A stretch of DNA of 64,000 nucleotides from Nymphaea colorata (taxonomy: Eukaryota; Streptophyta; Magnoliopsida; Nymphaeales; Nymphaeaceae), in contig NC_045143.1 in the NCBI RefSeq assembly GCF_008831285.2, positions 20,606,854 to 20,670,853 on the forward strand, given 5' to 3'. Made by a program: the position numbers and the translations under genes. Positions 4,018 to 64,000 of the stretch are shown here, in pieces. Each line of letters opens with the position of its first letter. The stretch's first letter is position 1. Below the pieces are notes generated by a model that saw only the letters and a list, made by a program, of their open reading frames with translations, did no database searches and was not told where the DNA came from.

Positions 4018-4227
4018 GACCTATAAATTGGAAGACAAAGGGAGGCGCAAAAACCCTCTCCTCCCTCGTCCCCTCCCTCCCCTTCTTCACACGGCCATCT
4101 CCCTTCCTCTGTAATTCCATCCGCTCCTACCTTCCTTCCGCCACGCCACTGCCACCGCCGCCACCGCAACCCCGACCCCTTCGAGGGAGGAGAGCTCGAT
4201 CGGATCGTCGAAAAACCCTAAGCGGAG
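4018..4227 (+). promoter_or_regulatory. Probable core promoter and 5' UTR of importin-5
   Basis: A TATA-like CTATAAATT lies at about 4020-4029. It is followed by a C/T-rich leader with CCTCC and CCCTCCC blocks and an AAACCCTAA (telo-box-like) word just before the ATG at 4228. This is a common layout for plant housekeeping genes. The start site is not determined by the sequence, and the TATA call is inference. Confidence 0.35.
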
Positions 4228-21980: not shown

Positions 21981-24871
21981 TCAAGCTTCATCCCCCAACC
22001 AATTACTCTTCATTTTTGGCCCTGTGGGACCGGACTCCCCAGGAACTTCTGCAGGGAGCTTTCTGATCACACTCTCCACTGCATCATTAAGCTTCCCAGA
22101 GAGAATCCTCTTCACTTTCTTTAGCTCCACTGCTATGTCATAAGTAATGGTGGGTCCCCAGCGCTTTGCATAGTTCAGCCATGGTGGCTCGGCAACCGAG
22201 TCCAAGCTCTCACCTGCAACAACAACATACCTTTCAACAATGTCTATCTTGGGCCCTTTTGCTGTATCCCTAGTCCCAACTTGCTCTTCCCTTGAAGGAC
22301 AAGCCCTGCCCTTGGATATGATGCATGGCCATGTAGAGAGGAGTAGACCACGGCCTTGTTCCTCCCTTCAAATTCTAGGTCTTCTGCACCAACCCAAATG
22401 CCCTTAGAATGCTGTGAACGGTAAACCTGCGTAGCTCCCCTGAGAAATTTCTAATTCTCATTGTTACATGCTCCCAGTCTCCCACATGTTCCCCAATCTT
22501 GCCTAGAGAGATGTTGACTAGCTTCACTTTGGCTCTAGCTGGACCATTAAGGGGTAAAAGATCCATATGGCAACATCAGTGAAAGTGGCACCCAGCATGG
22601 GCTTTGATGTGGAAGTAGCACTCAACACTTTGCAGGTTGCCCTTCTTGTCTCGTTCGGCATCGTTTTCGTCGACCGGCAAAGCAATCCAGTACGAGTCGT
22701 TCTCGGAACCACCTTGTGGGACATGCGACCCAGCTGGATCAATGGGGGATGGTGTTGAGCTGCCATTTTGGTAGAGAAGAGCTCCATTGGTGAAGAACCA
22801 GGGCACTGATGAAGGTAGGCAGCCCTCATCAGGATGGAAGTTGATCCATGGAGAATACACATCCATTATGGCCTCTACTTGACTGAGATTAGGCATGTAG
22901 GAAAGTGGATTAGGGTTCATGTTCTTCAAACAGCCGACATTGGTCAAGTTGGGTTCACCATTGACTTGTATACAAAATGTTCCCACCCTTACTCCTAGGG
23001 TACTAACGTCAACAAGGTCTGACCTTACACACGATATTTCATCAAGAGGTGGCTTCTTCGGCGTGGTCACTATAAAACCCACAGCCTTGTAGCCTTGGGG
23101 AGGAATTGGCAGCCGGAAGTAACCATGACCATCTTGCTTTATGTTCAAAGACTCACTACTCCATACCAAGGAGAAGTCTACCGGAATTTGGAGAGTTTGA
23201 GAGCCTTTTCCGGCGAGGACCCAACGGGAGGGCTGTTTAGAGTTCGGTTGGCAGTAGCAACCGAGCATGAAAAATCCAGATGGTATGCTGGCTGGTTTGG
23301 AAAAACTTGCGCCAAGATTGTCCACACCACCTTCATTGCAAGACCATATTTTTGTAAATGTTGATACTTGACACACCTCTAGCTCTCCGAGGCTTATGCT
23401 TCCGGTTGCAAATCCAGTACCTATAGATCATACATTAGTTTTCAACAGTAACTCGGAAATAAACACTGTTCGAAGTTAGTGGCCAGGTCAGAAATTTTGG
23501 TTGATGTGCCCCAATTGAAAAAGTTTTAGACCCCTCAAATACATGGTAAAAAGGATTGAGGGACACCATATATAAATAAGTAAATGATTGAGAGATATTA
23601 ATATATAAAATAAGCAAATAGATAGGCCTGACTAATCCAGTGAATAAGTAAATTTTGTAGGACAAATAAAATCACTTGGCAGTGTAAAATTGGACAAATG
23701 ATAATGTTCATACCGTGAAAATTTTGAAAAAGAAAACATGAAAGAACTTTTAAGAAACTAATTGATTGTACCATTCCTGTGCACGTTTGGTTATACATGA
23801 CAAATTTCCGAGACAAGTTTATCCTAAAAGCCATCACATTCTGAGAGTTAAACTGTCTCCTTAATTTTCGGAAGACTGTTAGTTCTTCCTTTCTATGTAA
23901 GGTGAACGATCGGAATAAAAAGAAAAAAACTTGAGGATGAAACTAATTTTCAAGCATACAGGGATTGGTGGTATAATCAGTACTCCTCTTCAGAAGCAGG
24001 GTGAAGTCATGCTGCAGAGATGAAATTATTTCTTCCATAATTCCAAACATGAGCATCAAATGTTAATGACAAATTTCTGTGGATTTTCCAATTCTTCAAA
24101 TAGTTTTTTTCCCTTAGAAGTTAGAAGTTGGAAATTCTTTTCTTACGTGGGAAAGAAGCATGTTTTGCAGAATGGATGCACGTACGTGCAGGCGGTGCTT
24201 AATTTAATTTTTACAACTTCTCACCAGCTTTCCAGAAATTAACATGAGAATATCCTTGCATATTTTACATTTTAAAAAATATATGGGGAAAATTTTAAAT
24301 TACCAGGAAAGTGCCTTACTCTTCTTTTTCTCCTCGAATCAGAGATGTATCTGTCACACAGCTTGAGTGCCAATGGATTACAGTTTCAAGTTAAGCATTA
24401 AGCATACACCTTCAGGGTCGTTTGGGAACAGTAACATCCCACTTTTTTGGAGAGATGCATGGTGCCCAAATATGCCCTCATTATTAACTCATATTTATAG
24501 AACGTTAGTTCGAATAATTTATGATTCTGTTTCAATATTTGGAGCAGATTAGTAAGACACTCATAAAGTGTTCATGTTGCCAAACAAGTCGACTTTCAAG
24601 CATGCGTCTAGTCTTTCATGCTTTTGAGCATAGTTTCTGAGCAGAATAAGCTCTCAAATGCTTGTTTTGAAAATCTTTTGATAACAATAAATATAAACCT
24701 GTTCTAATGAAAGAGAAATTGGTGATGATAAGGATGAGGAAGCCTGTGAGCTTTGATTGAAGATAATGACAACAGGTGTTGCTTACCAGGAGGCCAAGGT
24801 GGTAGTTGAGACGGCAATTTGAAAGTTGAGTTGATTGGAAGGAGCTTAGAAGAGCAATGCCGATCGCCCAT
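21981..24871 (-). pseudogene. Vps62/DUF946 family gene, broken tandem copy
   Basis: This copy closely resembles the intact copy at 26310-29720. Exon 1 (24787-24871, start MGDRHCSSKLLP) and its GT donor are intact, and exon 2 begins at 23420. Exon 2 is damaged relative to the intact copy. About 33 codons are missing near 23000, where the stretch after SDLVD jumps to STLGVRVG. One extra base near 22600 shifts the frame after YFHIK. A lost base near 22548 and further small losses near 22430 and 22275 break the frame again. The last 74 codons (22205-21981) are back in the family frame and end at a conserved ...KSNWLGDEA with TGA. A shortened protein of roughly 310 residues could still be made. 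DUF946 (Pfam Vps62) proteins have no firm molecular function that I can assign. Confidence 0.85.
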
Positions 24872-26309
24872 GGTGTAATTATATAGTCAATACTCTTCAA
24901 TGCTATCAGGATAGCATTTTCTAGAATCGAGCCGAGGACATGGTTAATACCTACCACACAATCCTACCCCTTTTTTTTTTTTAAATGTCTTTCTGATGGT
25001 GAGAATTTGTCGTTGCGTTTACGGGAAGACCGTGCACAAATGGAATGTTCAGGTGCGAAGGGGAAAAAATGCATCGGTAGAAGCAAAAGATATGTCATGC
25101 TATGCTAAGGCAAGTTAAGCCTCAAAATAATTAATTTTTAATACCGAATCTAATTTATTAGATTATCAAATTGATTTTTTAGTCAATTTTGTTTCTTTTT
25201 CAAAATAACCTTCCCATTTATTATTTTTTTTTCACTTTCTACCGATTCACCTGATTCAATCAAATCGCTGGATCAGCAGGTCCACAAGAGCGGGAGATTG
25301 CTTTATTCTCTTTGAAACAAGGCGCTCTCGCCCACGTGAGATCAAGTTTTTTTTACATGGTTTGAAAAGGAAAAAAGAAAAGTGTGACATGGTTTAGTGG
25401 TTAACAGTGCAACAATCTTCTAAACATAAGACCACCCGACTCACAACTATGTCACTGAAAAGTAACATTCTCAGGTGAAATCATCTTTACTTTGGACATT
25501 GGTTTCATGCTCCATTGCTCCTCTTATGCATTGGTTGGTAATACAAGACAGAGATAGAGGAAAAGGGAAAACAATTGACAAGAGGGTTCTCATTGGCCAT
25601 TGCTCTTATTAGGGGCAAAATTAAGGCTCTGAGACTATGCCTGTGGCCCAAGCCCGGCTCGGCTAACCCGACCTGATTTTAATTAAAAAATATATATAAA
25701 ATTCATATAATAAATATACATATTTATAATATAAATATATTTTATAGTAGATGTCGAGTTGGATTGGGACCAGCCGAAGTCGGGCCCAGGCCGGCCAACC
25801 TCTTATTTGGTGGTCTCAGCCTAGCCCTACCCGACCCGACCCAGATAGTGGAAGAAAAAAGTTGCGTAGTTGCCAAAAAGAAGCATATCACCTGTAAACT
25901 CCTCAAAAAGTTACTTGGAATGGTAGCAATTCAAGTCAGCATTGTCACAGATATGGTGAGACTTCGAAAATTTCGTGATATTTCTTAGAACAACAAGTAA
26001 AACGAAAATATCAGAAAATCTCTCAAGACTTGGAAAATTTTCAGCAAAAACGAATTTCTCGTGATCCTATCTCGATCTTTTCAAAATTTTTTGATAACTT
26101 TTCAAAAGCGATATTTGTGACAAGGATTCATGCTAGAATGAACTGCATATATCATTAAATTAAGTATTTTACAAGTGATCAGTCGGTATAGATTCCACAA
26201 ACCCCTAACAATTGCGGTTCAAGAGCTTAATTGCAAGTTCATAAACTAATTAAAACCCCTTCATATAAATCCCAATGGATTCCACATTCATCATCATATT
26301 ATAAGACCT
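24872..26309. other. Intergenic spacer between the two DUF946 copies
   Basis: No gene is seen. About 25640-25860 is a GC-rich/AT-rich/GC-rich block with GCCCGGCTCGGC and GGCCCAGGCCGGCC words around an AT-rich core. It resembles a small non-autonomous DNA transposon, but no clean ends or target duplication were found. The remainder is AT-rich intergenic sequence. Confidence 0.4.
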
Positions 26310-29300
26310 TCAAGCTTCATCAACCGACCAATTACTCTTCATTTTTGGCCCTGTAGGTCCCGACTCCCCAAGAACTTCTGCAGGGAGCTTTCTGATCACA
26401 CTCTCCAGTGCATCCTTAAGCTTTCCAGGGAGAATCGTCGTCACTTTCTTCAGCTCCACCGCTATGTTATAGGTGATGGTTGGTCCCCAGCGCTTCGCAT
26501 AGTTCAGCCATGGAGGCTCAGCAACCGAGCCCAAGCTCTCACCTGCAACAACAACATACCTTTCACCAGTGTCCATCTTGGTTCCTTTTGCTGTATCATT
26601 CCTTATCCCTATTCCCAAGTTGCTGTCCCCTTGAAGCACAAGCCCTGCTCTTGGATATAAAGCATGACCATGTAGAGAAGCATAGACCACAGCCTTGTTC
26701 CCCCCTTCAAATTCTAGGTCTTCCACACCAACCCAAGTGCCCTTAGAATGCTGTGAACAGTAAACCTGCCACAGCTCCCCTGAGAAATTGCTGATTCTCA
26801 GTGTTACATGCTCCCAGTCTCCCACATGTTCCCCAATCTTGCCTAGAGAGATGTTGACTAGCTTCACTTTGGCCCTAGCTGGACCATTGAAGGGGTAGAA
26901 GACCCATATGGCAACATCAGTGAAAGTGGCACCCAGCATGGGCTTGATGTGCAAGTAGCACTCTGCACTTTGTAGGGCACCCTTCTTGACTCGCCCGGCA
27001 TCAGTTTCGTTGACCGGCAACGCGATCCAGTACGAGTCATCCTCGGAACCGCCTTGTGGGAGATTTGACCCGGCCGGATCGATGGGGGTCGGCGTCGAGC
27101 TGCCATTTTGGTAGAGAAGGGCTCCATTGGTGAAGAACCAGGGCACTGACGAAGGTAGGTAGGCCTCATCTGGATGGAAGTAGATCCATGGGGAGTAGAC
27201 CTTCATTATGGCCTCAACTTGTGTGAGACTAGGCATGTAACTAGAAAATGGGTCACGGCTCATGTTCTTCAAACAGCCTACATTGGTCAGGTAATTGGGT
27301 TCCCCATTGACTTGGACACAAAATGTTCCTACCCTTACTCCAACAGCACTGGTTCCTCTATGTGTTGGCCTTAGACTATAGAAGCTTATAACCTCACCAT
27401 TATCCTTGTTATGATCCCAAACCCACGTGTCCAACTCGCACTCGTCGACGAGGTCCGACCTAACACACCTTATTTCATCAAGAGGTGGCTTCTCCGGCGT
27501 GGAGGTCACCATAAAACCCACAGCCTTGTAGCCTTGAGGAGGAATTGGCAGCCAGAAGTAACCATGATCATCTTGCTTTATATTCAAAGACTCACTACTC
27601 CATACCAACGAGAAGTCTACCGGAATTTTGAGAGTTTGGGAGCCTTTTCCGGCAAGAACCCAACCGGAGAGCTGTTTAGAGTTCGGTTGGCAGTAGCAAC
27701 CGAGCATGAAAAATCCAGATGGTATGCTGGCTGGTTTGAAAAAACTTGCGCCAAGGTTGTCCACACCACCTTCATTGTAAGACCATATTTTTGTAAATGT
27801 TGTAACTTGACACACCTCCAGCTCTCCGAGGCTTATGCTTCCGGTTGCAAATCCAGTACCTATAGAGTATCAGATCATCGTTGTCAAGAGGAACACGTAA
27901 CTATAGTCGAACGATCTTTCTTCTTAAGACAAATAATAATATCGCAATGCATATAAAAAAAAGTAGCATTTTGAAATTGAAAAGGATTAATCAGAAGCAG
28001 CGTCTTTTGAATGGGATCTTTAGATCTTTACCTAGCTTGATTGCTTGACTACAACTTCATCATAATAAGTCTTCCGCAAAACCGAATTGGAATATGAATT
28101 TCGATATGAATCTGATCATATGTTTATTTAAAAACGAATTTGTATTTGGATCTGATTGGCTGTCATTTCTTCGATATTAATGATGTCAAATATTATTCCA
28201 TGTCAGAATTATTTTAGCAGTTTAGTCAGATGAATCTCATGAATCCAATGCATAACATCCATAACTAGTGTGACTTGTCTTAGACATGAACCTCTTCTCA
28301 TGACTGCACATCCTTGATGAAATGTCGATGGACACTTTATCAGACCCTTCAGATCAAGCCCTTAAAGAGGAAAGAATGAAACTGCTGCAACGTCAAGAAA
28401 GATAGCGAATGCGAACATGTACTGCGAAAGTCGAAGTCGTGATAAGTCATGACTTCAAATTAAACTGTATATATACAGTGCTTACCTAATTTGTACTTGC
28501 AAAACTTAACTTCATGTACAATTGGATGGGTTTATCTAACTACATAAAGAGCTTTCCGTAAGTAATTGGAAACCCAAGTGGTCTAGAATTATTGAACTTT
28601 CATTACTAAGTTCACTTGGGTACTCCAAATAAGTCGACGATCAATTAAACTAGTGAAATTGTAAGTTCTCAACATTAATTCAGCATTGCATCGACCGTGT
28701 GGCAAAATTTTGGAAAAAAAAAAAGCAATAACAAAATTGTCATTGCACAGCACCACGAGAGTAAGTTGGGTGCTCACTCATATACGCCAAAAAGAAAAGG
28801 GGAGACACTTTGATAATTATGTTAAAAAATGTCATTTTTAATCTTTTTATTTTTTTAAATTTTCTTTGTCATCATTATAATTTTTTTTTCTCTTTTTTAT
28901 TAACTAGAGTATTTTTGTAATTAACCATACTGGCCATGCATAACAAGCTTCGCTGCACCATGGCTTCCGTTTAATCCCGGGGAGACGTTGCTTGTACGTG
29001 ACAATTTTCCAAGATAGATAAGCTTCAACTAATTAAACACTTATTAGTATTTTGAGAGTCAAAATATCACATTTTGGAAAGTCCTGTGTGTTTAAGTGCA
29101 ATAATTGGAATGAGAAAGGCAAAGCTTGAGGGTGAAAATTTCACCCGAATACCGGGTTGAGGGTATGCTAGAAAGCAGGCTAAATTCGTACACAGATCAA
29201 ATTATTTCTTCCTTTCAAACGTGAGCATCAAAAGTTAATGCTAATGAACTACAATATTTGGATGAGCGAGAAGTTAATTACCCATCAGCTAAAAGAAAAA

Positions 29301-30347: not shown

Positions 30348-31022
30348 TGTTATGGTCGTAATCCCCAAAAAAGAATGCTTCAACAACAATAAAAGAGGCC
30401 AAACCAACACAAAACTGCAGAAAAAACGGAATCACAGTACTGCGAGCATAAGAACGAGTTTCCAACACCATTATTGCAGCAATATACGCTAAGATATATG
30501 TTAAAAATGCAGAAAATAGAAGACACCAATTTAAGTGAAAAAACCCCAAATAATGGGGTAAAAAACCACGGGCAAGAAAGACTTTCTATATATCAAGAAA
30601 GGGAGCCAAATACACCAACAGCAATATCCCTACTGTTTTAAGAAAAACAGTGAACTCAAGAGAACAATAACACTCTTATGTGAATGAAAGAAAAAGCTCC
30701 AATGATTCAAGAAAAAAATCACCCAATGAAGACTCCTTTCATTTTCTCTTTCTTCTTTGTCTTTTCTCTCTCTTCTTGGCGTGCCGATCAACCCACGCGC
30801 CTTGCTGCGATTTCTCCATCTTCTCTTCCTTGCCTTCCTCTTCTCCTTCTCTCCCTTGCTGTGCAACACAAGAGACCTTCCGTTCTCTTTTTTGCAAAAA
30901 AAAAAAAAACGAGAGAGAGACGTAAGTGGGAGGGGCACCATCGAGTGCCCGCCTTTCTCCCGCCCATCACTTAAGTGACGGGTCGAGTCGGGTCCTCTTT
31001 TGAGGCTGGACCCGACCCAACA
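30348..31022 (-). repeat. 3' LTR of the copia element (675 bp, complete)
   Basis: Read on the minus strand it begins TGTTGGGTCGGGTCC and ends in ATAACA, the TG...CA form of an LTR. The polypurine tract immediately precedes it. The segment 30348-30791 aligns with 38201-38651, with several differences per 100 bases, so the insertion is not recent. Near its start it holds an inverted GGGTCGGGTCC/GGGTCGAGTCGGGTCC pair that could form a hairpin. Confidence 0.9.
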
Positions 31023-31034
31023 AACTCCCCCTCC
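31023..31034 (-). other. Polypurine tract of the copia element
   Basis: On the minus strand this reads GGAGGGGGAGTT directly before the 3' LTR start TGTTGGG. It is the expected priming site for plus-strand DNA synthesis and fixes the internal boundary of the LTR. Confidence 0.85.
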
Positions 31035-31226
31035 AGCCTCAAGAGAGGGAACATACCTACAAAATGAACATAATTAATACACTGCCTTAAAGACAATCAT
31101 CCCAACTAAGTCACTACACATGTTATGCTTCTCTTTAGGTAGAGACTTCATCATCATATCTGCAGGATTCTTCTTTATATGTATCTTCTCTAACTGAGTC
31201 AGTTTTTGCTCAAGCACATCACGAAT

Positions 31227-33522
31227 TCAATGATATCTGACATCAATGTGCTTGGTACTTGAGTGAAACGCTGAATTCTTCGCCAAGTGTATAGCGCTTT
31301 GGCTATCACAATGCAACACATAGGTGTTCTGACTAAGGCCTATATCACGAAGAAAATTCTTCATCCACAACAACTCTTTACAAGCTTCGGTTGCTGGAAT
31401 ATATTCTGCCTCTGTAGTTGAAAGAGCAACACACTTCTGCAATCTAAATTGCCATGATACAGCTCTCCCTGCAAAAGTAAAGACATAACCAGAAAGAGAC
31501 TTTCTAGAGTTCAAGTCACCTGCCATGTCTGCATCAACAAATCCTTGTATATCTAGATTAGATTCACCAAAACATAACAGTAAATTATTAAGTACGTTTA
31601 AGATACCTTAGGATCCACTTCACTATTACCCAATGCTCATTGCCTGGATTTGACAAAAACCTACTAACTACACTAACTGCATAAGCCAAGTCTAGGTGTG
31701 TACAAACCATAGCATACATAAGACTCCCTACTACGGAGGCATAGGGTACATTCTCCATTCTTTCTTTCTCATATGCTGAGGATGGACACTGCTCATTTTC
31801 TAATTTAAAATGTGCTGCTAAATGTGTATTTACTGTTTTGGCATCTTTCATGCTGAACTTGCTAAGCACCTTCTCAATGAATTTCTCTTGTGATAACCAC
31901 AACTTCTTGGCCATCCTATCACGAATAATCTTTATGCCTAACAATTGTTGTGCTGGCCCCAAGTCTTTCATATCAAAGAATTTGCCCATATCCTTCTTCA
32001 ATTGACTAATCAATTGACAGTTCTGTCCAATAATAAGCATGTCATCTACATATAACAATAAGATAATGAAGTTACCTGATGAGAACTGTCTGGCGTATAC
32101 ACAATGATCTACAGCAGACCTGCGATACCTTTGATTTATCATAAATGCATCAAATTTCTTGTACCACTGTCTAGGTGCTTGTTTAAGTCCATACAAACTC
32201 TTCTTTAACTTACAAACAATGTGTTTCTTCCTGGCAACCACAAAACCTTCTAGCTGTGTCATGTAGATTTTTTCCTTTAGATCTCCATGAAGAAAAGCAG
32301 TTTTTACATCTAACTGTTCTAACTTCACGTCTAGACATGCCACCAAACCAAGTATTATCCTGATAGATGACATTTTAACCATAGGAGAAAAAATTTCATC
32401 AAAATCAATACCTATTTCCTGTTTGAAACCTTTCACCACTAACCAAGCTTTGTATCTTAACTTGCCTTGACCTTCATTTTTAGGCTTGTAGACTCACTTG
32501 TTCTGCAACACTTTCTTACCTTTTGGTAGCTCTACCAAATCAAAAGTGTGATTCTTATACAAAGAATTCAACTCTTCCTGCATAGCTTTAATCCATTCAT
32601 CTTTATGCACATCATTTAGCACCTCTGCATAGAATTTTGACTCTCCACTATCTATAAACATAATATATTCATCAGTAGAATATCTAATAAATCGTATACG
32701 TGTTCTTTTACCTCTTCCCAATTACTCCTCAATTGGTTCTGAATGAGAAGGAAGCTCCTCCTCCAACTCATGCTCATGATCAGTTTAAATCTCCATAGAG
32801 CTGCCATCTGTATACTGCTCATTTACCTCTCTTTCCTCTTCCTCTACATCTTCATCAGTCTCACTATGCTCAGATGAAAGTTCTTCAGATTCTGCATAGG
32901 TTGGCTCATGAACACCACTAGTATTCACACCTGATTGTTTGTCACCAACGACATCTTCAATCGTCTGATCCTTTCTGAAGACAACATCACGACTCCTATA
33001 GATTTTGTCATTCTTTGGATTTCATAACCTGTAACCAAATTCATCATCTGCATAACCAAGAAATATTAGAAGAATAGTTTTATCATCTAGTTTGGTTTTA
33101 TGTTCTTTTGGTACAAGCATAAAAGCTTTACAACCAAAAACTCTGAGGTGATCATACTTAACCTCTTCATCTGACCAAGCTAGATACCAAACTTCTAACT
33201 CTCTCAATTATAGTTCTATTCATCATTTCTGCAACTCCATTATGCTGTGAAGTATATGGAACTGTCTTTTCATATCTAATACCACGCTTTTGACAGTAAT
33301 ATGGTAAAGAAGATGCTATGTACTCATCACTATTATCTGTTCACAGTCTCTTCATCTTCTTACCAGTCTCGCGCTCAACCGCTGTATGAAAAGTCATGAA
33401 GATACTACTTACTTCACTTTTGCTTTTCATTGTAAACGCCCACACCTTTCTGGATGCATCATCAATAAATGTGACAAAATATGACACTCCACCTTTAGAT
33501 GTCACATTTATAGGTCCACATA
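31227..33522 (-). pseudogene. Copia integrase (C-terminal part), reverse transcriptase and RNase H remnants
   Basis: From right to left: an integrase core piece with GPINVTSKGGVSYFVTFIDD (to about 33345), followed after a stop by TDNSDEY and NGVAEMMNRT, which hold the second Asp and the Glu of the DDE triad. Then come the integrase tail (KAFMLVPKEHKTKLD), the reverse transcriptase with the LLYVDDMLIIG catalytic motif (31588-32439, an 850-base unbroken frame) and RNase H with STTEAEYI and CDSQSAIHLAKN (31227-31526). Several in-frame stops separate the pieces. The order is typical of plant copia polyproteins. Confidence 0.93.
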
Positions 33523-36500
33523 TATCACACCCCGACCTTTTGACATTCAAAACATTTTTTTTCAAAAAAAATATCAAGCATCGAGGCGCGACTACACAAC
33601 AATTTCAAAAGAGATGAGCCAAACAATGCAAAACAATGAGAAAGCTTTCCATTAAATAAGAATTTCAGTTCATTTGTGCAATGACAAAAATGCCCAACTC
33701 ACAACATTGGTGCCTAACAAAAATAAGACATCAATAAAACCAAAACAAGACACGCCGGCGCTACAATTGACCCAAAACCTCTCCAGTAGGATGTGAGTGA
33801 AGCCATCTGCTCAACCTGCTGCTCAGGGTCCGCCAAAACCTGAAAAAGGAAACAACTGAAGGCTTAGCCTTCGCAGTATGGTAACAAGCCAGGAAAAGTC
33901 CAAACCCTCTTAGGTATGGCTCAAATATACGAGCAAACATCAGAACAGTCTATCATCATGTCGTGTCAGGACACGACATGCAAAGGCCACTCAATGGCCA
34001 CAGTCACACAATTTCAGATCACATGCAAGTCAGGCTTAAACATGTCATTTCATTCACAATCGCATTCTTCTCATTTACTTTCACTATGAAACAATTTACT
34101 ATCATGTTGTGGTAGGGCACACATTCACATAACTTATCAAGGAGTCCTCACCTATACCTCAACATGTAAAGGCCACACACAAAGTCCGCAATACCACATT
34201 CAATAACCACATGCAATTCAGAAATAAAGCATCGTTCTCATTCACACTTCATTCATACTAATATCATTTGCATACATTTCATTTCTATGCTTTCATTTTC
34301 ATTAACTTCAGTGAATTGACAGTTCCTGTGGGTACAAACACAGGCACGTGCACACTGCGGGCGGTCTATAGCCGAGAGAAAACCCCCGTGGTGGCCCAAA
34401 ACAGTATGGATCCTTCCATCCACTGCAGCGGTAGAGCACTCATCCATGGATGTGTGAATTCCACGAAGAGATACTCATCCCTCCCTAAGACACCCAGGTT
34501 AGGAAGGCGGGAGCCCATGCTCCAAGCACGTCACACAACAGTACCCTGGGGCCTTGTACCGCCTGCGCTTCGAACAGGCGAGACCAGTGGCGAAGGTGGG
34601 ACAACTCCCAACACATAGCCACATCTCACTGGCCTCTCATCTCTTATTCTTTCATTCTTACAATTATCCTTGCACAAACACAATTAACTGGCTAGCTCAT
34701 GAGGTTGGTTCACTTCACGAGTGGACTCACACCTCCAATTGCCTCCATACGAGGGCTACACATAACAACAACAGTTTTGGCTAGCTAGCTCAACAATATG
34801 GATACAGCTACCCTCTATTCAATCATTTGCATCATTGCCCACGGCAATGTGTACTCAACAAATACAACATTCATTTTTATTATCAAAATAATCACATCTT
34901 TGAAAAACTTAGCCAAACCACTGAGAGTAGTCTTGATCTGTGATGGACTCGTAGCTGTCCTATGCAGTTATCATTCTAGGATGCTTTCTAATGCACAATT
35001 TGGGTCGATGAGACACTTGACTCGATACCCCACCTCATCTGTCCTAAACAGTTATCAATTCTAGCATGCACATGCAAATGCGTGATATTTCAAATCAGAC
35101 TTCTAATAGCTTTTCAAAACACCTCATATCAGATATCAAAGCATTTGCATGCATACACACATTCATTCACCAAACAATCAATCAATCAATCACATCACAA
35201 TCCTAAGATCCTACGATCCCAGGAACAAACATTAACACAGTGCCCGAGGTAAGGATTTGCCTGGAATGTTGCCATACCTGTCACGCGTCCAGAAAAATCT
35301 TCAAAATGCCTCGAGCTTCGAAACTGGTCGCTCAAGGTCGACGGGACGTGCTCGGTCTACCTGAAAACATACACAAGTGGTAAATGACTAAACTCTACAC
35401 TAGTTTAGATTCACAATCAAAATGATTATAGGACAAAATCATTGAGGCATTCCATTGCCTCAAGAGGGTATCGATGGGTAGTGTCGACCTAGAAGCCCTC
35501 CAATAGGCCTCCTCCTGACTTCTTGACGTTGCCACGAGACCTCAAAACTCAATGCTTCACTGAGTCCATCCTTAACACATTCTTAAATGTTTTATGTAGT
35601 CTAGGCGTCAACCCCATTGTCACATCCAACTTAGGTACACTTTTCCCAAATAACTCCAAGATACGCCGCTCGCAAAAGCGTGAGTCACGTGCTCAAAAAG
35701 ACGGTTCTAAATCTTCCCCACAACATCACAATCCCTACCATGCTTCCCTATTGCTTTAAAAATCAACACCTCGAGCCTAAGAGATCAATAAATACATGAA
35801 TCAACGCTTCTCCAACACAATTCTACACTTTCTTCAAAAAGCAAAGTCGCTAACATGCATTCCAAAACATCAATTATACCTTCCATCATGCTTTAACAAT
35901 AATTATACGCGTTCCAAAGAAAAATATACAAGAAATAGGCTCAATTACGCCTTGCTCACCCCAAATCAAGAGTCTAGACTGCTGCAATCCTTCCGGCAGC
36001 CACCTCAAGCATTCAATCGATCCCCAAATGGCAAAAATCGTGCCAAGTCACCACCACCAACACCACCTAATAACTGATATGAGGGGAAAAACACGCTCCC
36101 CAAGCTGTAATCCTATCAAACAATGATGAAATCAATGAGGAAGAATGCTCGGTTGGGAAAAAGGGGGAAAACAAATAGAAAAATGGGGAGAGAGAGCTCA
36201 CGTAGGGAGCGTGTGGGCAGGGAGAGGCGTTGACAGAGGGAGACAGACAGAGAGGGTTCAGACAGAAATGGAAAAACGACAGAGGGGGTGAGAAGGGAGA
36301 AGGGAGAAGAAAACGCGAGGGTGAGAGTGAGTGAGGAGAGGGACCGTGCGGGAGGGAGCTAACAGACAAGGAAAAGAGATTGGCAAGAGAGAAAGAGAGA
36401 ACGTGCGGCAGAGGGCAAGGGAGCATGGGGGTGGTGGAGAAGGGAAATAGCACGAGAGAGAGAGAGTTTACCCAAGCGCCGCCGCCGTTGCCGCTGCTCA

Positions 36501-36683
36501 AACCTCCGCCTTCTTCTTCTCTGTGTTGCAGTCGTAGCTCAGGGAGAGTCGAAGAGGGGAAACGAGGGAGAAGAGGGAAAGACGAGGGAGGAGAGGGTGA
36601 CGTCGGGACCCTCTTGCGCTTGGGGATCGGGTCCGGGTCTGGACCCTCTCCAACCCGACCTGAAACATGAAACGAGCATTACA
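33523..36683. mobile_element. 3.16-kb solo-LTR-like insertion, copy A, with 5-bp target duplication
   Basis: The left end TATCACACCCCGACC (TG mutated to TA) and right end GAGCATTACA have the inverted TGTnAC...GTnACA form of an LTR. It is flanked by perfect ACATA direct repeats at 33518-33522 and 36684-36688. It interrupts the copia integrase region. There is no polyprotein, so it is best read as a solo LTR of an unidentified LTR retrotransposon. Related copies are at 46984-48853 and 61206 onward. A purine-rich GAGAG block near 36180-36640 precedes the right end. Long open frames inside, such as 34268-34618, are not family proteins I recognise. Confidence 0.85.
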
Positions 36684-36688
36684 ACATA

Positions 36689-38144
36689 CATCTGAATAAA
36701 CTAAATCTAATACATATTTAGTTTTTTAATAGCGTTTTTTCTGAAAGGAAATTCAATGCAACTTACCAACCAAACAATGATCACATGGAGATAGTGCACC
36801 ATCTACCTTTTGTAACAAATTCTTCTTGGTGAGTAAATCGACTACTCATTGACTCATGTGACCTAACCTTTTGTACCACAAATCTGACGAAGTCTTACCA
36901 GTAACTGCATTGACATCCACACTATTGATCAGAGACTTCATCCCATACAAAGAGCCAAATCTGTCACCTCTAGCCAACACAAGTGCCCCCTTTGTCAGTT
37001 TCCAACCTGCCTGACTAAACAAAGTACAATATCCATTTTCACTTAGTTTTCCTGCAGAAATCAGATTCATCCTAAGATGTGGAACATGTCTTACATCTCT
37101 CAAAGTCAACTTGCATCCTGTGCTCGTCTCAATGCAAACATCTTCTATCCCAATAATCATCGAAGTGTCACTGTTGCCCATGTGAACTACTCCAAAATCA
37201 CATGCTCTATAGGATAAGAACAACTCTCTACATGGTGTGGTATGATATGATGCTCCAGTATCTAAAATCCATATAGAATCATCATTTTGAACTGTAAGAC
37301 AATCATTTTCTTCAAATGAAAATAATACTACCTCATCATCTGAAGCAACTACAGTATACTCTTTTGACTTCACATTCTCTTGACTCTTCTTTTTCTATTC
37401 TTTTTCTTCTTTCCATTTTCTGCAATCAATCTTCTTGTGCCCTGTAATACCATAGTGAAAGCATTTACTTGTCATCTTGAGCCTTGATTTGGACCTAGAG
37501 TTTGACATGTCATGCCATTTGTTACGGTTCTTCTGTTTGCCCATGTCTCCCATCACTTGCACTTGTGAGCTACCAGTACCAAGAGACTTTCTCATTGTCT
37601 CTTCAATTAAAATGTTGCTCGTTACATGCTTCATCGTAAGCATACCATCTGAAGCGGAGTTGCTCAAAGAAACAACCAAAGTCTCCCAACTGTCGAGAAG
37701 AGAACTGAGCAATAAAAGTGCCTGTAACTCATCATCTAATGTCATTTTCATGGCTGACAACGGATTGATTATGCTCTGTACTTCATTCAAATGCTTTGAC
37801 ACTGGTTTTCCCTCTCTAAGTTTCAAATTTACTAATTGCCTAATCAAGAAAGCCTTGTTCCCAGCTGTTTTCCTCTCGTAAAGACCATGCAACTTCTACC
37901 ATAACGACTTCACGCTCGTCTCTGCGGATACCAAATGAAAAACACAGTCATCTAACCATTGTTTGATGGTGCCAATGGTTTTCCTGTTCAATAACTTTCA
38001 TTTTTCATCTGTCATATTCGCTGACTTCTGGTTCTCAATGGGTGCATATAGGTCTTTACAATACAACAAATCTTCCATTTTAGCTTTCCATATAGTCCAA
38101 TTGTTCCCATTTAGAGAGACCATCCTAGTGGGGGTCGACTCCAT
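36689..38144 (-). pseudogene. Copia gag, protease and integrase N-terminal remnants
   Basis: Gag starts at the ATG at 38144 (MESTPTRMVSLNGNNWTIW) and reaches a zinc knuckle near 37425, KCFHYGITGHKKIDC. The usual second cysteine of CX2CX4HX4C is a tyrosine here. The protease follows, with its DTGA active site in WILDTGASYHT (about 37280), then the GAG-pre-integrase motif DLWYKRLGHMS near 36870 and an HHCC remnant CDHCLVGK near 36780. In-frame stops occur near 37894, 37394, 36846 and 36760. The frame then ends at the inserted solo LTR. Confidence 0.9.
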
Positions 38145-38183
38145 CCTTCAATAATAATGCACACAACCAACCTGTTGCTAACA

Positions 38184-38197
38184 TGGCTCTGATAGCA
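38184..38197 (-). other. Primer-binding site of the copia element
   Basis: On the minus strand this reads TGCTATCAGAGCCA, three bases inside the 5' LTR. It differs at one position from TGGTATCAGAGCCA, the complement of the 3' end of plant initiator tRNA-Met that most plant copia elements use. It fixes element orientation and the inner edge of the 5' LTR. Confidence 0.9.
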
Positions 38198-38200
38198 CTT

Positions 38201-38651
38201 TGTTATAGTCGTAATGCCTAAAAAAGAATGCTTCAACAACAATAAAAGAGGCCAAACCAACACAAAACTGCACAAAAAACGGAATCACAAGGCTGCGAGC
38301 ATAATAACGAGTTTCCAATACCACGATTGCAGCAATATACGCTAAGATATATGCTAAAAATGCAGAAAATAGAAGACACCAATTTACGTGGAAAAACCTC
38401 AAATAATGAGGTAAAAAACCACAGGCAAGAGAGACTTTCTATTTAGCATGAAAGGGATCCAAATACATCAGCAGCAATATCCCTACTGTTTTAAGAAAAA
38501 CAATGAACTCAAGAGAACAATAACACTCTCTTATGCGAATGAAAGAAAAAGCCCCAAAGATTCAAGAAAGAAATCACCCAATGAAGACTACCTTCATTTT
38601 CTCTTTCTTCTTTGTCTTTCATCTCTCTTCTTGGCGTGCCGATCAACCCAA
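38201..38651 (-). repeat. 5' LTR of the copia element, truncated
   Basis: It is homologous to 30348-30791 of the 3' LTR and begins (plus strand) TGTTATAGTCGTAAT. The similarity stops abruptly after GCCGATCAACCCA near 38651, so about 230 bases corresponding to the start of the LTR (U3, where the promoter would lie) are missing. Confidence 0.88.
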
Positions 38652-47100: not shown

Positions 47101-50100
47101 GGGCAAACTTTCATTTATATAATCATTTCAATTCATACAAAATCACATCTATGTCTGACAAAAATGCCCCAAACAATATAATTGATGCCTAACAAAAACA
47201 AGACATCAATAAAACCAAAATAAGACGCGCCGGCACTACAAAAGACACATCCCAAAACCTCCCCAGTAGGACGTGAGTGAAACCATCTGCTCAACCTGCT
47301 ACCCTGGGTCCGCCAAAACCTGAAAAAGGAAACCATTGAAGGCTTAGCCTTCACAGTATGGCAACAAGCCAGGAAAATACCAAACCCTGATCCTAGGAAC
47401 ACACAATCACACATTGGCCTCAGGCAGGGATTTGCCTGGAATGCCGCCATACCTGTGGCGCGCTCACCAAATTCTTCAAAACTCCTCGAGCTTCGAACTC
47501 AAGGTCGACGGGACGTGCCTGGAGCACCTGCAGACATAAACAAAAGGTAAGACTCCTACTAGATACCTAAACAATTCAAACAAATACCAAACAAAATCTT
47601 TGAGGCACGTGTCATCGCCTCAAGACGGGTAGTGTCGACCTACACGCCCTCTAATAGGCCACTACGCAACTTCTTGCCGTTTCCACCCAACGTCAAAACC
47701 CCAATGCTTCGATCAATCCATCCTTAACGCATTTCTCATAAACTTTCCGTTAGTTGAGGCGTCTTCCCAACATGCGCACCCTCTTCCTACTACACATACC
47801 ACCCACAACATCAAGGGTGCTCCAAGCATTCCCAAAAGGCGGTCCTACGCTTCTTCACAATGTCTCTAACTCTACCATGCTTCCCTATAGCATCGAAAAC
47901 AACCTATCATGCATAAAAGATCATAATAAACACGAATCATCTCTTCTCTCCCATTATCCTACACTTTTCCCAAAAAGCAAGGTCGCTTGCATGCGTCCCT
48001 AACTATCAATTCTACCTTCTAGCATGCTCAAACAATAATTATATGCGTTCCAAAGAAAAATATATCATAAAATAGGTTCAATTTCGCCTTACTCACCCCA
48101 ATTTGAAGGTCTAAACTGCTGTAATCCTCCCGGCAGCCACCTCACGAGTCCAAGTGGTCCCCAAATGGCTAAAATCCTCCAATGCCTCCACCACCAAGGC
48201 CTTCTCTAATCGCTGTTACGAGGGGGAGGACAAATCCCCAAGCTGAAATCAGATCAAACAGTGATAGAATAGTGAAAATCAGTGAGAGAGAGTGTTCGAT
48301 TGGAGAAAATAGAAAAACAAGCAGAAAATGGGGAGAGAGCGTGAAGCATGGACAGAGAGGGAGGTCGAGTAGAGGGAGAGAGAGAGAAAAACAGAGGGGG
48401 ACTGATAGGGGAGAGGGTTCGGTCAAAGGGGAAAAAGGCCAGCAGTGAGGTGAGCGTGAATGAGAAAGGGGAAGGAGACGAGAGAAAGAGTGAGCGTGGG
48501 CAGAGAGAGATGCGAGAGAGAGCAGATGAAAGGGGAAAAAGAGGAAACGGGAAAGGCAGCAGAAATAACGAGAGAGGGAGAAGATAGGGCAGCAGAGGAG
48601 AGCTTACCCACGCTGCCGCTGTCGCCACCTCCGCTGTTGCCGTCGCCACCTCCGCCGCTGCCGGTCCAGCCACCGCCTGCACCACCTCCGTCTTCTTCTT
48701 CTCTGCACTGGCCGTGCGTAAGGAGATAGACGAGAGAAAAGAGGGAAAGGTGAGGGAGAAGAGCCCTTGCGTCGGGCTCTTTCACGCCAAGGGTTCGGGT
48801 CCGGGTCTGGGTTCCGATCCAACCCGACCTGCCAAAAAACAACGAGCGTTACATCTCAAATCTGTTACATGCTGATGGCTTGTTCCTTCTTCATCTATGG
48901 TGCATCTGCCCCTCACAACTGGGTTATTATGGTGATACGGTCTGAAATTGCACAATGAAGAAAGCCTGAAACTAAAACTTACTTTTTGGCTGTTCTTATG
49001 ATTGATATGGTGATACGGTCTGAAATTGCACAATGAAGAAAGCCTGAAACGGAAACTTACTTTTTGGCTGTTCTTATGATTGACTGTGTGTTTTGCTTAT
49101 ATTTGGATGGTCATGTTTGATGTATGCACTCCTTTAGATAGAAGCCCCTTTACTAAAGTTAAAAGAACCATCAGATCTTGCAATGACTGCACAAATTCAA
49201 CTTAGCTCGTGGTGGCAACCCATGCCCTTGCAATTTTCATTGGTAAATGAGCCAACTTCAGTCCTATCGGATAAACTTTAGCTACGTTTGTTGTTTTCTT
49301 TGGCTACTGTTACGTAAGCACATTTTGAGGATAGGTTGAACTGAAATACGTCTGCATGAAAGACATTAGCGTGTATTACATCTGATTTGTGCATAAAGTT
49401 AAGAAACTAGCCATGTAATGTTGCAGGGGAATTCATGGACACTATTTGGAACGTTGGTTTCTAACATTTTGGTGATTGTTTACCTGGAAGTGGCATCTTT
49501 CAGTTTCTTGATGTTGCAGTTGAACTTCTTTATGACTCCTCGTTTTCTGATTCTTTGGTCTCTAATAGTTGCTGGGAAACGCATAATTGTAAGAAAAGAA
49601 CTTCAAATTTACCCCCTAACAGATTCCAATTTTATATTGTCATTAAATCCAATGCTATAGCTCTGCTTCTTACTATTTTGAATGGACATGTCTATCTCTT
49701 TTGTTCCACGGAGTGTATTGACAAAAACTTTTTTTGATAATGACTATTGTTTAGTTTCATTTGAAGTCCAAGTTGGATATTAATGTTGCCTTTCATTCAT
49801 ATTTCATCCTTATTGCTCTGGTTTTCTTTCAGTACATGCTCGAAGGCTTGCAGCTTTGAAAGCTCTTACATTTGCTCCAGCTAGTAACTCAGAGGTTTTG
49901 GGAAGGCTATATGAAATTGTATTTGATATTTTGGACAAGGTATTATTTTGGCATGAGTTGTTTTCTTTCTCTTGTGCCTACTGATCATTTTTAGGCTGCA
50001 TTTGTGTACACATGATATGCAGTATGGGCTTTTAAGCCAGAGTTGTTTTTTCTCTCTTTCATTCTGGAACCTCTGACATTTTTGAAAAAGTTATGTCGAT

Positions 50101-53100
50101 CTGAATTCCCTTTTTGTCCTCTCTGAATCTGTAGCACGAGCACTAGCATGTCATCATTATCCTTATAGATACCTCCAGCATTACCTTTTAATTTTCTTTT
50201 TATGTTGTGTGGTTAACTGAACCCTCTGCCACTCCAAGGAATCCAATTATGTAAGAGCAAATGCACTACCTACACTATTGTTTCTCCATTTAAGTGTGTA
50301 TGCCTACTAGAGGAGCTGCAGTACAAGTTTAAGTCTTGGTGGAATAGCCATATTGTTTAATCCTCTCATTGAAAAGAAAATTTTCAATGCTCTACTTGTG
50401 ATATTAGGTTGCTGATTCTGGTAAGCAAAAACGAAAGAAAGGAATGTTTGGGAGGCAAGGGGCAGACAAAGAGGTGAGTGGCTACTCTGAGGCAGACTTA
50501 TTCAGAAAAAATGCTCGTCACCTTTGTTGACTAAACTTGTCTGTTATAGCATTTTTTTCATGTAGTTGTGCTTATGCATTTTATCCTCTGAGCAAGACTG
50601 TCCCAGCTTACTTGATTGATCAATCTTTTTCTCAGAAGCTATGGTGTCAAAATCGCTAGGTGCAACCTGGGCGGCAGGCTGCGCCTAGCGGCTAGGCGTG
50701 CCTGGGCAAGACTAGGTGCACTTAGGCGACCATTTAACTAATTATGACTCTATGTGTATACCACTCTTATCCGTATCTTATGATACTTATCATATAGGTC
50801 AGAAAAACCTTTATGACACAAGCACAATATACAAATTGCATGTGCATCGTGCTCGTATCGGCCGTATCTTATGATAGAGCACCCATATTGTACGATACGG
50901 CTGATACAAGTTGTATCTTACAATATGGCTCTGTTTTACAAAAAGCGTCTGATGCCTCTTTTTTGTTGATTTTTTTTTTTTAAAGTTCCTCTCTCCTTTC
51001 ATTTTCAATGCTTCTAAGAGTTGTGGGAGGGCGAGCTTTCACCATTTTAAAAGGAAATCGCCGAGAAATCATTACCTCAAGGAAGAAATAATCAGCTTGA
51101 AAGGATGAGCATGCAGATGAAGAAGATAATGATTATTGTATCGATTGATAATAATCATGATGTTATTTAATTATAATTTATAAACATGATTTCATTTCTC
51201 ATTTGAAAGCGAACGGCTATGGATTATACGTTTGATGTGATGTAAAATACGATAGACTTCAGACTTTATTTTATTAATGTGTCATTACTTATGAACAGTA
51301 AATCATGAATGTTCATTATGTATGTAATGAGTTTTTTTTATATGGAACATATTTTTTCTTGATTTTTCTCTATTTTCCATGATTTTTTATGAATTTAAAA
51401 ATACATTTATGATATGTTTAGAATACTATACGTTATGATACACGTATAGTAGGGGTGGGTATCGGGCCGGGCCGGGCCGGGCCGGCCCGGTCTGCTAAAA
51501 CCTGACCCGGGTCGGCCCGTCGGGCCTGAAACCCGGCCCGGGCCTGGCCCGATAATATTGCCGGGCCGGGCCGGGTACCGGGCCGAGTCCACCAAAATCA
51601 GGCCCAGCCCGGCCCGTTTGGCAGGTCGGGCCGGGTCGGATCTTCTTGCGCTCCAATGAGTTCGGTCCAACCTGCGCTCGACCGCCCGTCACCGACTCAC
51701 CGCTCGCCTGCCGAGTGCCGAATGGCAGGGCGGTGGTCTTTCACCGGCAGGCGGCAGGCCACCCAACTTCGTGGGTGGCCACCGGCGGATGCCGCCAGGA
51801 CGGCCGGCCGTCGCTCGCCGCGATGGCCGGCCGTCGCCCACCGCCCACCGTAAAACAGCTCAAGGGATCGAGAGAGGAAGAGGGAGGGGGAGTGGGAGCA
51901 CAGACGGAGAGGGAGAGTGGAGAGGGAGAGGAGGAGGAGAAGGGAGAGGGGAGCAGATCCCAAGCATGTGAACGAAGACGTCGAACTTGGGAGATCCCGA
52001 TCTTCTTGTTGCGGACCTGCGGTTCTTCGCGTGGACGGAGACGTCGAACTCGGGAGACGCGATCAGCGCTTGCGAGACGTCAAAGCCCTTGATGGAGAGG
52101 GAATCGATGGAGTAGGAGGGTGCTTTGGGCTGCAAGACGAAGCACAAGACGGCGGCGAACGCGAGGAGGATGAGAAAGAAGACGAACCAGCAGAGGACGC
52201 GGCAGAAGGAGCAGCCGCGCTTGGAGCAGCTCCCGCGAGGAGAGAGAAGATTGGGCGAGAAATGAAAAAACATTTAGGGTTTGACAAGTTTTATATCAAA
52301 TTTGGAAAATTACAAGAATGGTCCACCATATTTGCAAACTTTTTAGAAAAACAGTTATAATAATATAATTTTCAGAAAATTTGCATAATGCAACCGGGCC
52401 GGCCTATCCGGCCCAGGCCCGGCCCAGGTCCGCTGCCGGGCCGGCCCACCGGCGGCCCGGCGCGACGCCCAGCCCTAACGTATAGGTCGGCCCGACCGAT
52501 ATGCATTACAATACACCTTTATAACATTGTTACATACAGTCAAGATTATATAATATATCAGATTGTCATAAATAACTTAATATATATGTTAAAAAGTGTT
52601 TAAGTTATTAATTATTAAGTTATATAATATGACCAATATTGATGTAGTTATCATATAACAATAGTCCATTACAGTCAATATTATTATATGAATTGTATTA
52701 TACTTGTATATTGAGGACAAACTGTAGTATTGAAGACTCAAGAAACTGAAAATCAATACAACAGCTTCCTCGACTGAAATGTTCACTTAAATAGCTGTCT
52801 CCACATTGAAGGAGGAGTGAAAAACTTTCTATTCGGCTTCCACAACTTAAAAATGTGCATCACACCAGTCTCCAACACTATTTAATCCTTATTAAAGAGT
52901 CTTTAAGAACCGTGTATTTCCATGTTTAAGAAATATTGGAGAACTATCTCTTTGGCTTCCACAACTTAAAAATGTGCATCACACCAGTCTCCAACATTAT
53001 TTGATCCTTATTAAAGAGTCTTTAAGAACCCAGCTGAGTCACTGACTGTCTCTTCGACTTCTGTGGACTAGGCACAGGCATGCCTAGTTGTGCCTAGGCA

Positions 53101-61205: not shown

Positions 61206-64000
61206 TGTCACACCCCAACCTTTTTGACCCTCAAACACATTTTTTTTTTCTAACATAAAGCATTGAAGTGTGACGACACAACATTTCAAAAAGGGAGCTA
61301 TGTCATTCCAAACAATGGGGCAACTCTCATTTATATAACAATTTCAATTCATACAAAGTCACATCTAAGTGTATGACAAAAATGCCAAAAACCACAACTT
61401 TGATGCCTAACAAAAATAAGACATCAAAGAGACCAAACCATGACGCGTTGGCACTATCAAAGACCCAAAACCTCCCCAGTAGGATGTGAGTGAAGCCATC
61501 TGATCCACCTGCTGCCCTGGGTCCGCCAAAACCTGAAAAAGAAACAACTGAAGGCTTAGCCTTCGCAGTATGACAACAAGCCAGGAAAAATCCCAAACCC
61601 TCTTAAGTAGGGCTCAAGTCTGAGAACAATCATACAAACAATCTATCGTCATGCCGTGTCAGGGCATAGGCACATCATTTGCCAAGAAAACCCCCAACAT
61701 AGACCACGACATGAAAAGGCCACTCAAGAGCCACATTAACACATTCTCAATCGCATGCAAGGCATGCTTAAACATTTCATTTCATTCATATCATTCACAT
61801 GCCCATCAGTCACATACATTCATTCACACACATTTCAATCACATACTTTCATTTTCATTAACTTTAGTGAATTGACAGTTCCTGTGGGTGCAAACATAGG
61901 CACGTGCACACCATGGGCGGCCCATAGCAGAGAGGCAACCCCCCGTGGTGACCCATAACAGTATGGATCCATTCATCCGCTGCAGCAGTAGAGGACTCAT
62001 CCATGGATGTGTGAATTCCAAGGAGAGACACTCAGCCTTCCCTAGGACACCCAGGTTGGGAAAGCGGGAGCCCAACGCTCCAAGCACAACACACAACAGT
62101 ACCCTGGGGCCTTGCACCGCCTGCGCTTCGAACATGCGAGACCAGTGGCGAAAATGGGACGTCTCCCAACACATAGCCACATCCCACTGTCCTCTCATCT
62201 CTTAATCATTCATTATTATCATTAGATTAACACATTTACAAACTGACTGGCTAGCTCATGACGTTGGTACACTTTACGAGTGCACCCATACCTCAAATTG
62301 CCTCCACACGAGGTCTGCACATAACACTAGCAGTCATAGCTAGCCGTCATACAATATGGGTACAACTACCCTCCAATTCAATCATTTGCATCATTGCTCG
62401 CAGCAATGTGTATGCAACAAAACAAAACATTCACATCATTCATCATATCAATCACATCTTCAAAAACCTGGCCAAACCACAGAGAGTAGTCTCGATCTGT
62501 GATTGACTCGTAGCTGTCCTATGCAGTTATCATTCTAGGATGCTTTCTAATGCACAATTGGGGTCGAGGAGACACTCGACTCGATACCCCACCTCATCTG
62601 TCCTAAACAGTTATCAATTCTAGCATGCACATGCAAATGCGTCACAGTTTTCAAAATATGCTTCTCATAGCCTTTCAAAACAAATCATATCATATATCAA
62701 ACAATTTGCATGCATACACACATTCATTCACAAAACAATCCATCAATCACATCACAATCCTAGGGTCTCACGATCCTAAGAACACACATTCACACAATTG
62801 CCCAGGCAAGGATTTGCCTGGAATGCCGCCATACCTGTCGCGCGTCCACTAAACACCTCGAACTACGTCCCACGTTGCTCAAGGCCTACTTGACTTGCCC
62901 GGTGTACCTACAAACATAACCAAATGGTAAGTTCTCTACTCGTTTCGCTTACAATCGATACAAATCTGAAAATACCATCATCGAGGCATGTCTTCGCCTC
63001 AAATGAGTGTCGACCCACAAAGCCCTCCAAAAAGGGGTCTTTTCCCACCCGTCGAGGTTTCCACCAACGATTAGAACTCAAACTTATATTCGACTTATCA
63101 CATGTGCGATTCTCATTTGTTTTCCATAGTTGAGGCGTCTTTACCGCAATGAAGATTCTCAACATACAACGCATATGTACATCAATAGAAGCCTATTTCC
63201 CAAGCTTGCTAAAACGGTTCTAAACCTTCACCGCAACATCACAATTTCTACCATGCTTCCCTATTGCTTCGAAGATCAACACACCATGCTAGAAAACACT
63301 TACACACATAGATCCTCGTCTGTCTCAAAATGGGCATAAACTTCCCCAAAATAGCGACATCTCTAGCATGCCTTCTAAAACATCAATTTTTAATTCTAGC
63401 AAGCTCAAACAATAATTATACATGCTCTAACAGAAAATATTCGATAATTTAGGTTTCATATAGCCTTGCTCACCCCAAATTTAGTGTCCAAACTGCCGCA
63501 ATGTTCTTAGCAGCCGCCTCAAGCGTTCGATCAAGTGCCAATGCCCAAAATTGATCGCTGCCTCCACCACCAATGCTTTCTCTTGACTGGTATGAGGGAA
63601 AAATCATCTGTTCCCAACTGAAATCGAAACCAACAGCCCCAAAACAGTCAAAAGCAGCAATAAAAACGGACGGGGGAAAAAGGGAGAGTGTGCAGCAGAG
63701 AGGACGAGAGAGTGTGGGAGTGAGAGCTCGAGCAGAGGAGGAGAGGGAGAGAAACAATAACAAAAAAGACGGAAGGGGAGAGGCTGCGCAGAGGAGGCCG
63801 TGTGGCAGAGAGGGGAGACGGCAAAACAGTGGGAGAGGGAGGAGGAGAAAAAAGAAGAGAGGGGAACCGGTGGCTTACCTACGCGCCACCACCGCCGTCG
63901 CCCTTCACCTTTTCCGCTGCTGCCATCTCTTCCGCCTCCTTCTTATCTGTGTTGTGTTCGTTGAAAGGAAGAGACAGAGAGGAAGAAGAGGAAGGAGAGG
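61206..64000. mobile_element. Solo-LTR-like repeat, copy C, running off the window
   Basis: It begins TGTCACACCCCAACC at 61206 and follows copy A segment by segment (for example TTGACAGTTCCTGTGGGTnC at 61874 and 34315; TCGTAGCTGTCCTATGCAGT at 62508 and 34948). At base 64000 it is in the purine-rich block near the right end. By comparison with copy A, roughly 300-400 bases lie beyond the window. It keeps the central part missing from copy B. Confidence 0.85.

Follow-up and report, generated by a model that had tools for sequence, protein, structure and literature searches.

Positions 51450-52477 of the Nymphaea colorata DNA analysed here (a stretch of 64,000 nucleotides, hereafter the window) bear on the unsettled question of how part of a gene comes to be copied into a cut-and-paste element. 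The initial annotation had read this segment as a Pack-type hAT element with a captured fragment of an NDR1/HIN1-like (NHL) gene, and the ends of the element, the donor gene, the family copies and the related empty sites all speak in favour of that reading. Taken as a whole, these 1,028 bp are best explained as a non-autonomous hAT element with part of a membrane-protein gene copied into it, a reading to which we assign a probability of roughly 0.94. A single genome supplies the donor, relatives without the fragment, two composites, a truncated copy, a coding relative and related empty sites, and the junctions are therefore legible down to single bases. For the genome itself, nothing more than a commonplace gene fragment in decay is involved.

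The element is bounded by imperfect terminal inverted repeats at 51450-51474 (plus strand, TAGGGGTGGG...) and 52453-52477 (minus strand, TAGGGCTGGG...), which are identical at 21 of 25 bases. A perfect 8-bp target site duplication, ACGTATAG, lies outside both ends at 51442-51449 and 52478-52485, so that ends, duplication and outer coordinates are as first claimed. Under a strict criterion (perfect 8-mer outside, 21 of 25 bases inside, ends 200-3000 bp apart) the real window contains one case, and there was none in 60 order-2 Markov windows (248,777 8-mer pairs, maximum 18) or in 200,000 shuffles of the element ends. A looser rule, demanding the 8-mer and agreement at 9 of 10 terminal bases, was satisfied by chance 12 times in 20 order-1 Markov windows, and the longer match of 21 of 25 bases is therefore needed. 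Short terminal inverted repeats (range 10-25 bp, according to PMC3942097) and 8-bp target site duplications are both hAT traits, and the latter was also seen in seven other distinct elements of the family. As is typical of a non-autonomous element, a Pfam scan of its eight open frames revealed no transposase, the three weak listings obtained all being below the cut-offs.

With the complete element as query, the same genome (408 Mb, 783 contigs) yielded at least 88 matches, 40 of the 597 first-look candidates being scored. At this depth the 30 loci represent 25 distinct places: besides the window and the donor gene there are 23 others that belong to the family, among them the left end of a coding relative (see below); other copies in the same genome, which had been named as a check, are thus present. 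Counting the one in the window, at least eight distinct elements possess the two ends along with a perfect 8-bp duplication, and their 8-mers are all different. It should be underlined that this number was obtained under a defined end pattern, which picked out only eight distinct elements among the 25 places, and that L004, L007 and L011 failed this search. Among pattern stretches in bacterial and viral contigs (137 and 5, respectively) no relative of the family was confirmed.

The relatives reveal which part of the element is its own. L003, L004, L007/L010 and L011/L013 contain the left body and the right body (element position 774 onward) with a different middle and no NHL sequence between them. 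The left family body (51450-51957), consisting of GC-rich subterminal repeats, the block at 51650-51860 and a purine-rich tract, extends to element positions 501-508 in L003 and L004 and is interrupted in L007 and L011, while the right family body (52223-52477) includes the AT-rich part at 52262-52395. Since relatives free of the fragment possess both halves, the NHL fragment has replaced part of the element's middle. The block at 51650-51860 had been suggested as a second captured piece; as it belongs to the body of relatives without the NHL fragment and lacks codon periodicity (its spread is attained in 2828 of 5000 permutations), it was not captured together with the NHL piece, and this suggestion is not supported. 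The block may represent an old capture by an ancestor of the family.

The assignment to hAT was also examined at the protein level. A search for the hAT dimerisation domain gave at least 150 matches (150 of 1113 candidates scored), and inspection by eye placed four family end matches 1.2-1.8 kb away from, and oppositely oriented to, such a domain; each of these places was read. One of them, L040 (contig C2, 653-6488), is a complete 5,836-bp element with the target site duplication TTTGTGGG that matches the window element at the ends only (query positions 2-190 at 81% and 962-1028 at 82%). It carries two 327-codon frames in line, separated by one TGA, with the hAT RNase-H (PF14372, 1.5e-24) and hAT dimerisation (PF05699, 2e-30) domains and a BED finger just below the cut-off (20.1 versus 20.6 bits). 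These ends and transposase domains make the family hAT by protein as well as by its ends. L041 has both end matches, yet no end pair with a matching duplication under the pattern, and L042 and L043 have the left end only. An intact helper was not found among these four places, the frame of L040 being broken by its TGA; a hAT transposase of the L040 kind would be expected to move the window element in trans.

The left flank of the element is part of a dispersed repeat (40 of 308 first-look candidates scored), and we compared the joined flanks (plus strand, joint at position 400) with five copies of this repeat. The alignment of L035 spans 1 to 435 and that of L036 1 to 429, in both cases past the joint and with a single copy of the target, whose 8-mers differ from ACGTATAG at some bases. 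For L037 and L038 the alignment stops at 416, 16 bases beyond the joint, and L039 gave no match to the joined flanks on the plus strand compared. As the repeats pass across the joint with the target in single copy, the 1,028 bp is an insert in an older repeat, and the related empty sites together with the target duplication establish the insertion. For the comparison with an allele or relative lacking the insertion, which had been called for, the uninterrupted related repeat copies L035 and L036 serve; identities of 77-80% over the joined alignment mark L035-L038 as diverged paralogous copies, not alleles. The insertion target (window 51050-51449 and 52486-52520) is thus itself a dispersed repeat. 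Inside L036 there is an inverted further copy of it, in which ACGTATAG is followed directly by GTCGGCCCGACC, and a palindrome-like sequence, GGTCGGCCCGACC, directly to the right of the insertion is common to the related repeat copies, with changes.

Other features of the window include a multi-kilobase repeat present as three diverged copies (about 33700-36013, 47180-48149 and 61393-63526; 62-94% in compared blocks), and a Copia-type LTR retrotransposon at 30348-38650, whose similar flanking repeats (92-93% in compared blocks), spaced by about 7.85 kb, enclose minus-strand frames for gag, Pol_BBD and reverse transcriptase. Tandem Vps62/DUF946 genes lie at 21980-23427 and 26309-27869, about 4.3 kb apart, one with an open frame of 519 aa and the other split into several frames. 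An importin-5-type coding exon is located at 4222-5469 (TPR_IPO5, 6e-44), and a telo-box-like AAACCCTAA (either strand) starts just upstream of it at 4213.

Between the two family bodies lies the piece that had been described as a reverse-strand fragment encoding the Cys-rich, membrane-anchor and early LEA_2 parts of an NHL protein. The main captured piece (51992-52227, minus strand) comprises 236 bp, corresponds to residues 70-147 of the donor and has a 15-bp deletion relative to it. A second short copy of donor sequence, the SPEFDVSVH segment at 51968-51994 (minus strand), is joined to the main piece via TCT, and about 10 bp of filler (51958-51967) occupy the left capture junction. The internal duplication of the SPEFDVxVH segment noticed at the outset is confirmed, as 51968-51994 and 52031-52057 are 89% identical, the donor also matches element positions 523-553, and the duplication recurs in the copy on contig C14. 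GC content by codon position is 0.49/0.42/0.90 in the reverse-strand fragment, a spread reached by 0 of 5000 permutations, and this codon periodicity, along with the match to an open NHL gene, upholds the description except for its last part: LEA_2 starts at donor residue 140 and the piece ends at 147, leaving only about 8 LEA_2 residues. Accordingly, the donor has a LEA_2 domain, whereas the captured piece stops about 8 residues into it and is broken by an 8-bp insertion (within 52009-52024, AACCGCAGGTCCGCAA versus AACCGTAA in the donor) found in both the window and C14 copies. This insertion is a near-direct duplication of its neighbour, with changes at the joint, and could be either a hAT excision footprint or a copying slip.

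Similarity searches with the fragment itself were less sharp. Pfam returned no NHL or LEA_2 match for it and no complete LEA_2 domain; the sole listing was Vac7 (E 0.089, below the cut-off, in a version including a piece of the next frame). A chloride-channel likeness in a PDB sequence search (two chains, E 0.45) was rejected as not meaningful. Aligned with Arabidopsis NHL6, the fragment scored 113 against a maximum of 51 in 2000 shuffles, and 73 against 41 for the post-anchor part, while the similarity to NHL10/YLS9 was weak, 54 against 52, with a post-anchor score of 29 reached by 100 of 2000 shuffles. The Cys-rich stretch, the membrane anchor and the KP.P.YSID segment resemble those of Arabidopsis NHL6, and we presume the fragment to be of NHL6 type. 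When motif 1 of the NHL proteins, as given in PMC12223711, was scanned over the window, its best place was the captured fragment, a score that is not significant alone as it was equalled by 13 of 200 Markov windows and 16 of 200 shuffled motifs; motifs 2 and 3 scored higher elsewhere in the window than at the fragment.

The origin of the piece is much clearer from the genome. Sequence 51958-52240 occurs at four places in the 408 Mb (4 of 4 first-look candidates scored): the window, C14 (89% identity), C1 (86%, gaps counted) and a short part on C12 (88%). The place on C1 is an open single-exon NDR1/HIN1-like frame of 266 aa, without intron and with a LEA_2 domain at residues 140-242 (Pfam, 5.3e-9), which is identical to the window at 210 of 223 aligned bases. 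When this gene served as query in a protein search, at least 40 matches were obtained, among them its own and those of the two captured pieces (50 of 50 candidates scored). Its best paralogue is 40% identical in protein, compared with 86% and 85% for the C14 and window pieces, and the donor is therefore unambiguous in this assembly. An NHL donor gene in the same genome, anticipated by the initial annotation, has thus been located, and the element has the Pack-TYPE trait of an identifiable host gene fragment between its ends. The LEA_2 match of this donor in Pfam takes the place of the comparison with plant NHL/LEA_2 proteins that had also been proposed.

The element on C14 (L002) measures 929 bp and has a perfect target site duplication of its own, GTTTTGAC. 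Compared with the window element it shows 813 identities in 968 columns, 97 of them gap columns (93% of ungapped columns), and its right end, aligned separately, matches at 38 of 43 positions. Both copies have the donor piece, the second SPEFDVSVH copy and the 8-bp insertion absent from the donor, and they share 7 differences from the donor; identities over aligned bases are 219 of 238 for donor and C14 and 216 of 231 for C14 and window. A copy on C12 (L005) has the same CTTGGAGCAGCTCCCGCGAGG junction, lacks most of the piece and has no visible right end. These common junctions and rearrangements demonstrate a single origin of the NHL capture, followed by transposition: the composite element would then have moved to give at least the window and C14 copies at unrelated sites, with a truncated copy on C12. 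Further composite copies, another Pack-TYPE trait, are thus represented by the full copy on C14 and the truncated one on C12. The private changes (7 of 9 C>T in the C14 copy, 4 of 6 G>A in the window copy) are, small numbers as they are, in line with decay of methylated DNA. The C14 element also decides against the idea, raised because the fragment is degraded, that the NHL-like sequence is an old gene remnant, beside or within which the transposon inserted, and not cargo: at another site and with another duplication, it holds the same fragment inside its ends, and the related repeats continue through the joined flanks without any fragment. No support was found for such a remnant, and we give it practically no chance.

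The order of sequences at the capture site, read on the plus strand, is family sequence, about 10 bp of filler, 27 bp of donor, the TCT joint (as read on the coding strand), 236 bp of donor-derived sequence, a GG joint and family sequence again, and the donor is re-entered with an offset of 63 bp in the element and 55 bp in the donor. Read in this way, the GG and TCT microhomologies, the filler and the 55-bp back-jump point to template switching during repair, since synthesis of that kind leaves re-copied stretches, filler and homologies of 2-3 bases behind. Probably a break or gap inside a family element was repaired with a switch to the NHL gene, and on a single occasion a family with GC-rich ends would have gained the 236-bp donor piece and a re-copied 27 bp. 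Replication errors during the repair of excision breaks have been suggested as the origin of captured pieces (PMC3260210).

Alternatively, two family members could have flanked the NHL segment and later moved with it as one unit. Such joint remobilisation has been put forward for Pack-TYPE elements by Gisby and Catoni, where hAT examples also appear (PMC8903248), and the family is numerous (597 first-look candidates, 40 of them scored). The composite, however, is one element body with its middle replaced, not two halves with inner ends, and neither a back-jump duplication nor filler is predicted by that model. Moreover, the 3.2 kb read at the donor locus contain no family element and share only the NHL piece with the element, besides one match with 3 mismatches to the 14-base end motif, which speaks against joint remobilisation in the present case and makes it rather unlikely here. 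Capture of a reverse-transcribed NHL transcript instead of DNA would leave much the same sequence, since the donor frame is without intron and its spliced and genomic forms look alike. Against this route, the piece carries no poly(A) or transcript end and is internal to the coding sequence (residues 70-147), and PMC3260210 describes introns kept in fragments captured by Ds; we regard it as very improbable. The junctions thus seem to favour template switching during repair over joint remobilisation.

As to what the capture produced, the minus strand contains a chimeric open reading frame of 137 codons (52273 to 51860) that consists of a family start, the NHL fragment and a family tail. The start peptide MFFHFSP is found in all six family copies read from that ATG (L002, L003, L004, L007, L011 and the window), and four of the six have the common tail (PLPLSI, then P or L); the C12 copy has ACG in place of the ATG. 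Despite the back-jump and the 8-bp insertion, the NHL piece is in frame with start and tail, giving open chimeras of 137 and 142 codons. Two in-frame joints would arise by chance about once in nine cases and so lend a functional frame weak support. Over 52 codons in four fragment-free copies no sign of purifying selection was seen (pN 0.039, pS 0.024, summed over 6 pairs), and synonymous/nonsynonymous changes in the captured piece, few as they are, number 9/7 for donor and C14, 4/7 for donor and window and 6/8 for C14 and window. It is conceivable, though in our judgement very improbable, that a resident family frame with its own start takes up foreign coding pieces in frame, so that a chimera with the NHL anchor could be made and interfere with the donor protein. 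Most likely, the captured fragment is passive cargo. A TATAAA on the minus strand (52295-52290) lies 17 bases from the ATG, probably too near to be its promoter, and was dismissed as such. The telo-box-like AAACCCTAA is found at 52274-52282 as one of four occurrences in the window, on either strand.

Among the papers listed by literature searches on the end sequence, the GC repeat and hAT capture with NDR1, none was relevant, and none of those listed for the GC repeat contained it. Comparison was made with known hAT systems. Rice Dart/nDart elements (PMC2956540) are likewise hAT with 8-bp duplications, and their 19-bp end TAGAGGTGGCC... (the reverse complement of the printed form) is similar to TAGGGGTGGGT... 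in the window; the end sequences are not the same, and this is a likeness of ends only, not a family assignment. As the initial annotation had it, clear hAT examples of gene capture are fewer, yet they have been published (PMC3260210, PMC8903248): such capture was termed rare in 2011 (PMC3260210) and has since been surveyed (PMC8903248), with Pack-hAT elements described in maize. Maize Pack-hATs resemble the window element in being non-autonomous hAT elements with host coding DNA and clusters of related copies. They differ in the proposed route, which is joint remobilisation (PMC8903248), whereas the window junctions look like template switching. The maize Ds2 and Ds-l4 elements, with gene fragments in 2 and 9 cases (PMC3260210), are hAT elements with 8-bp duplications, a modal length of about 1 kb for Ds-l4, short conserved ends with filler DNA between them, and fragments of host genes found on another chromosome; they belong to another element family and are likened here on these traits. 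In contrast to these, the window case has its donor resolved, and with it a sister copy, relatives free of the fragment and related empty sites, and the window element is thus a well-resolved further case of the published Pack-hAT/Ds type of gene capture.
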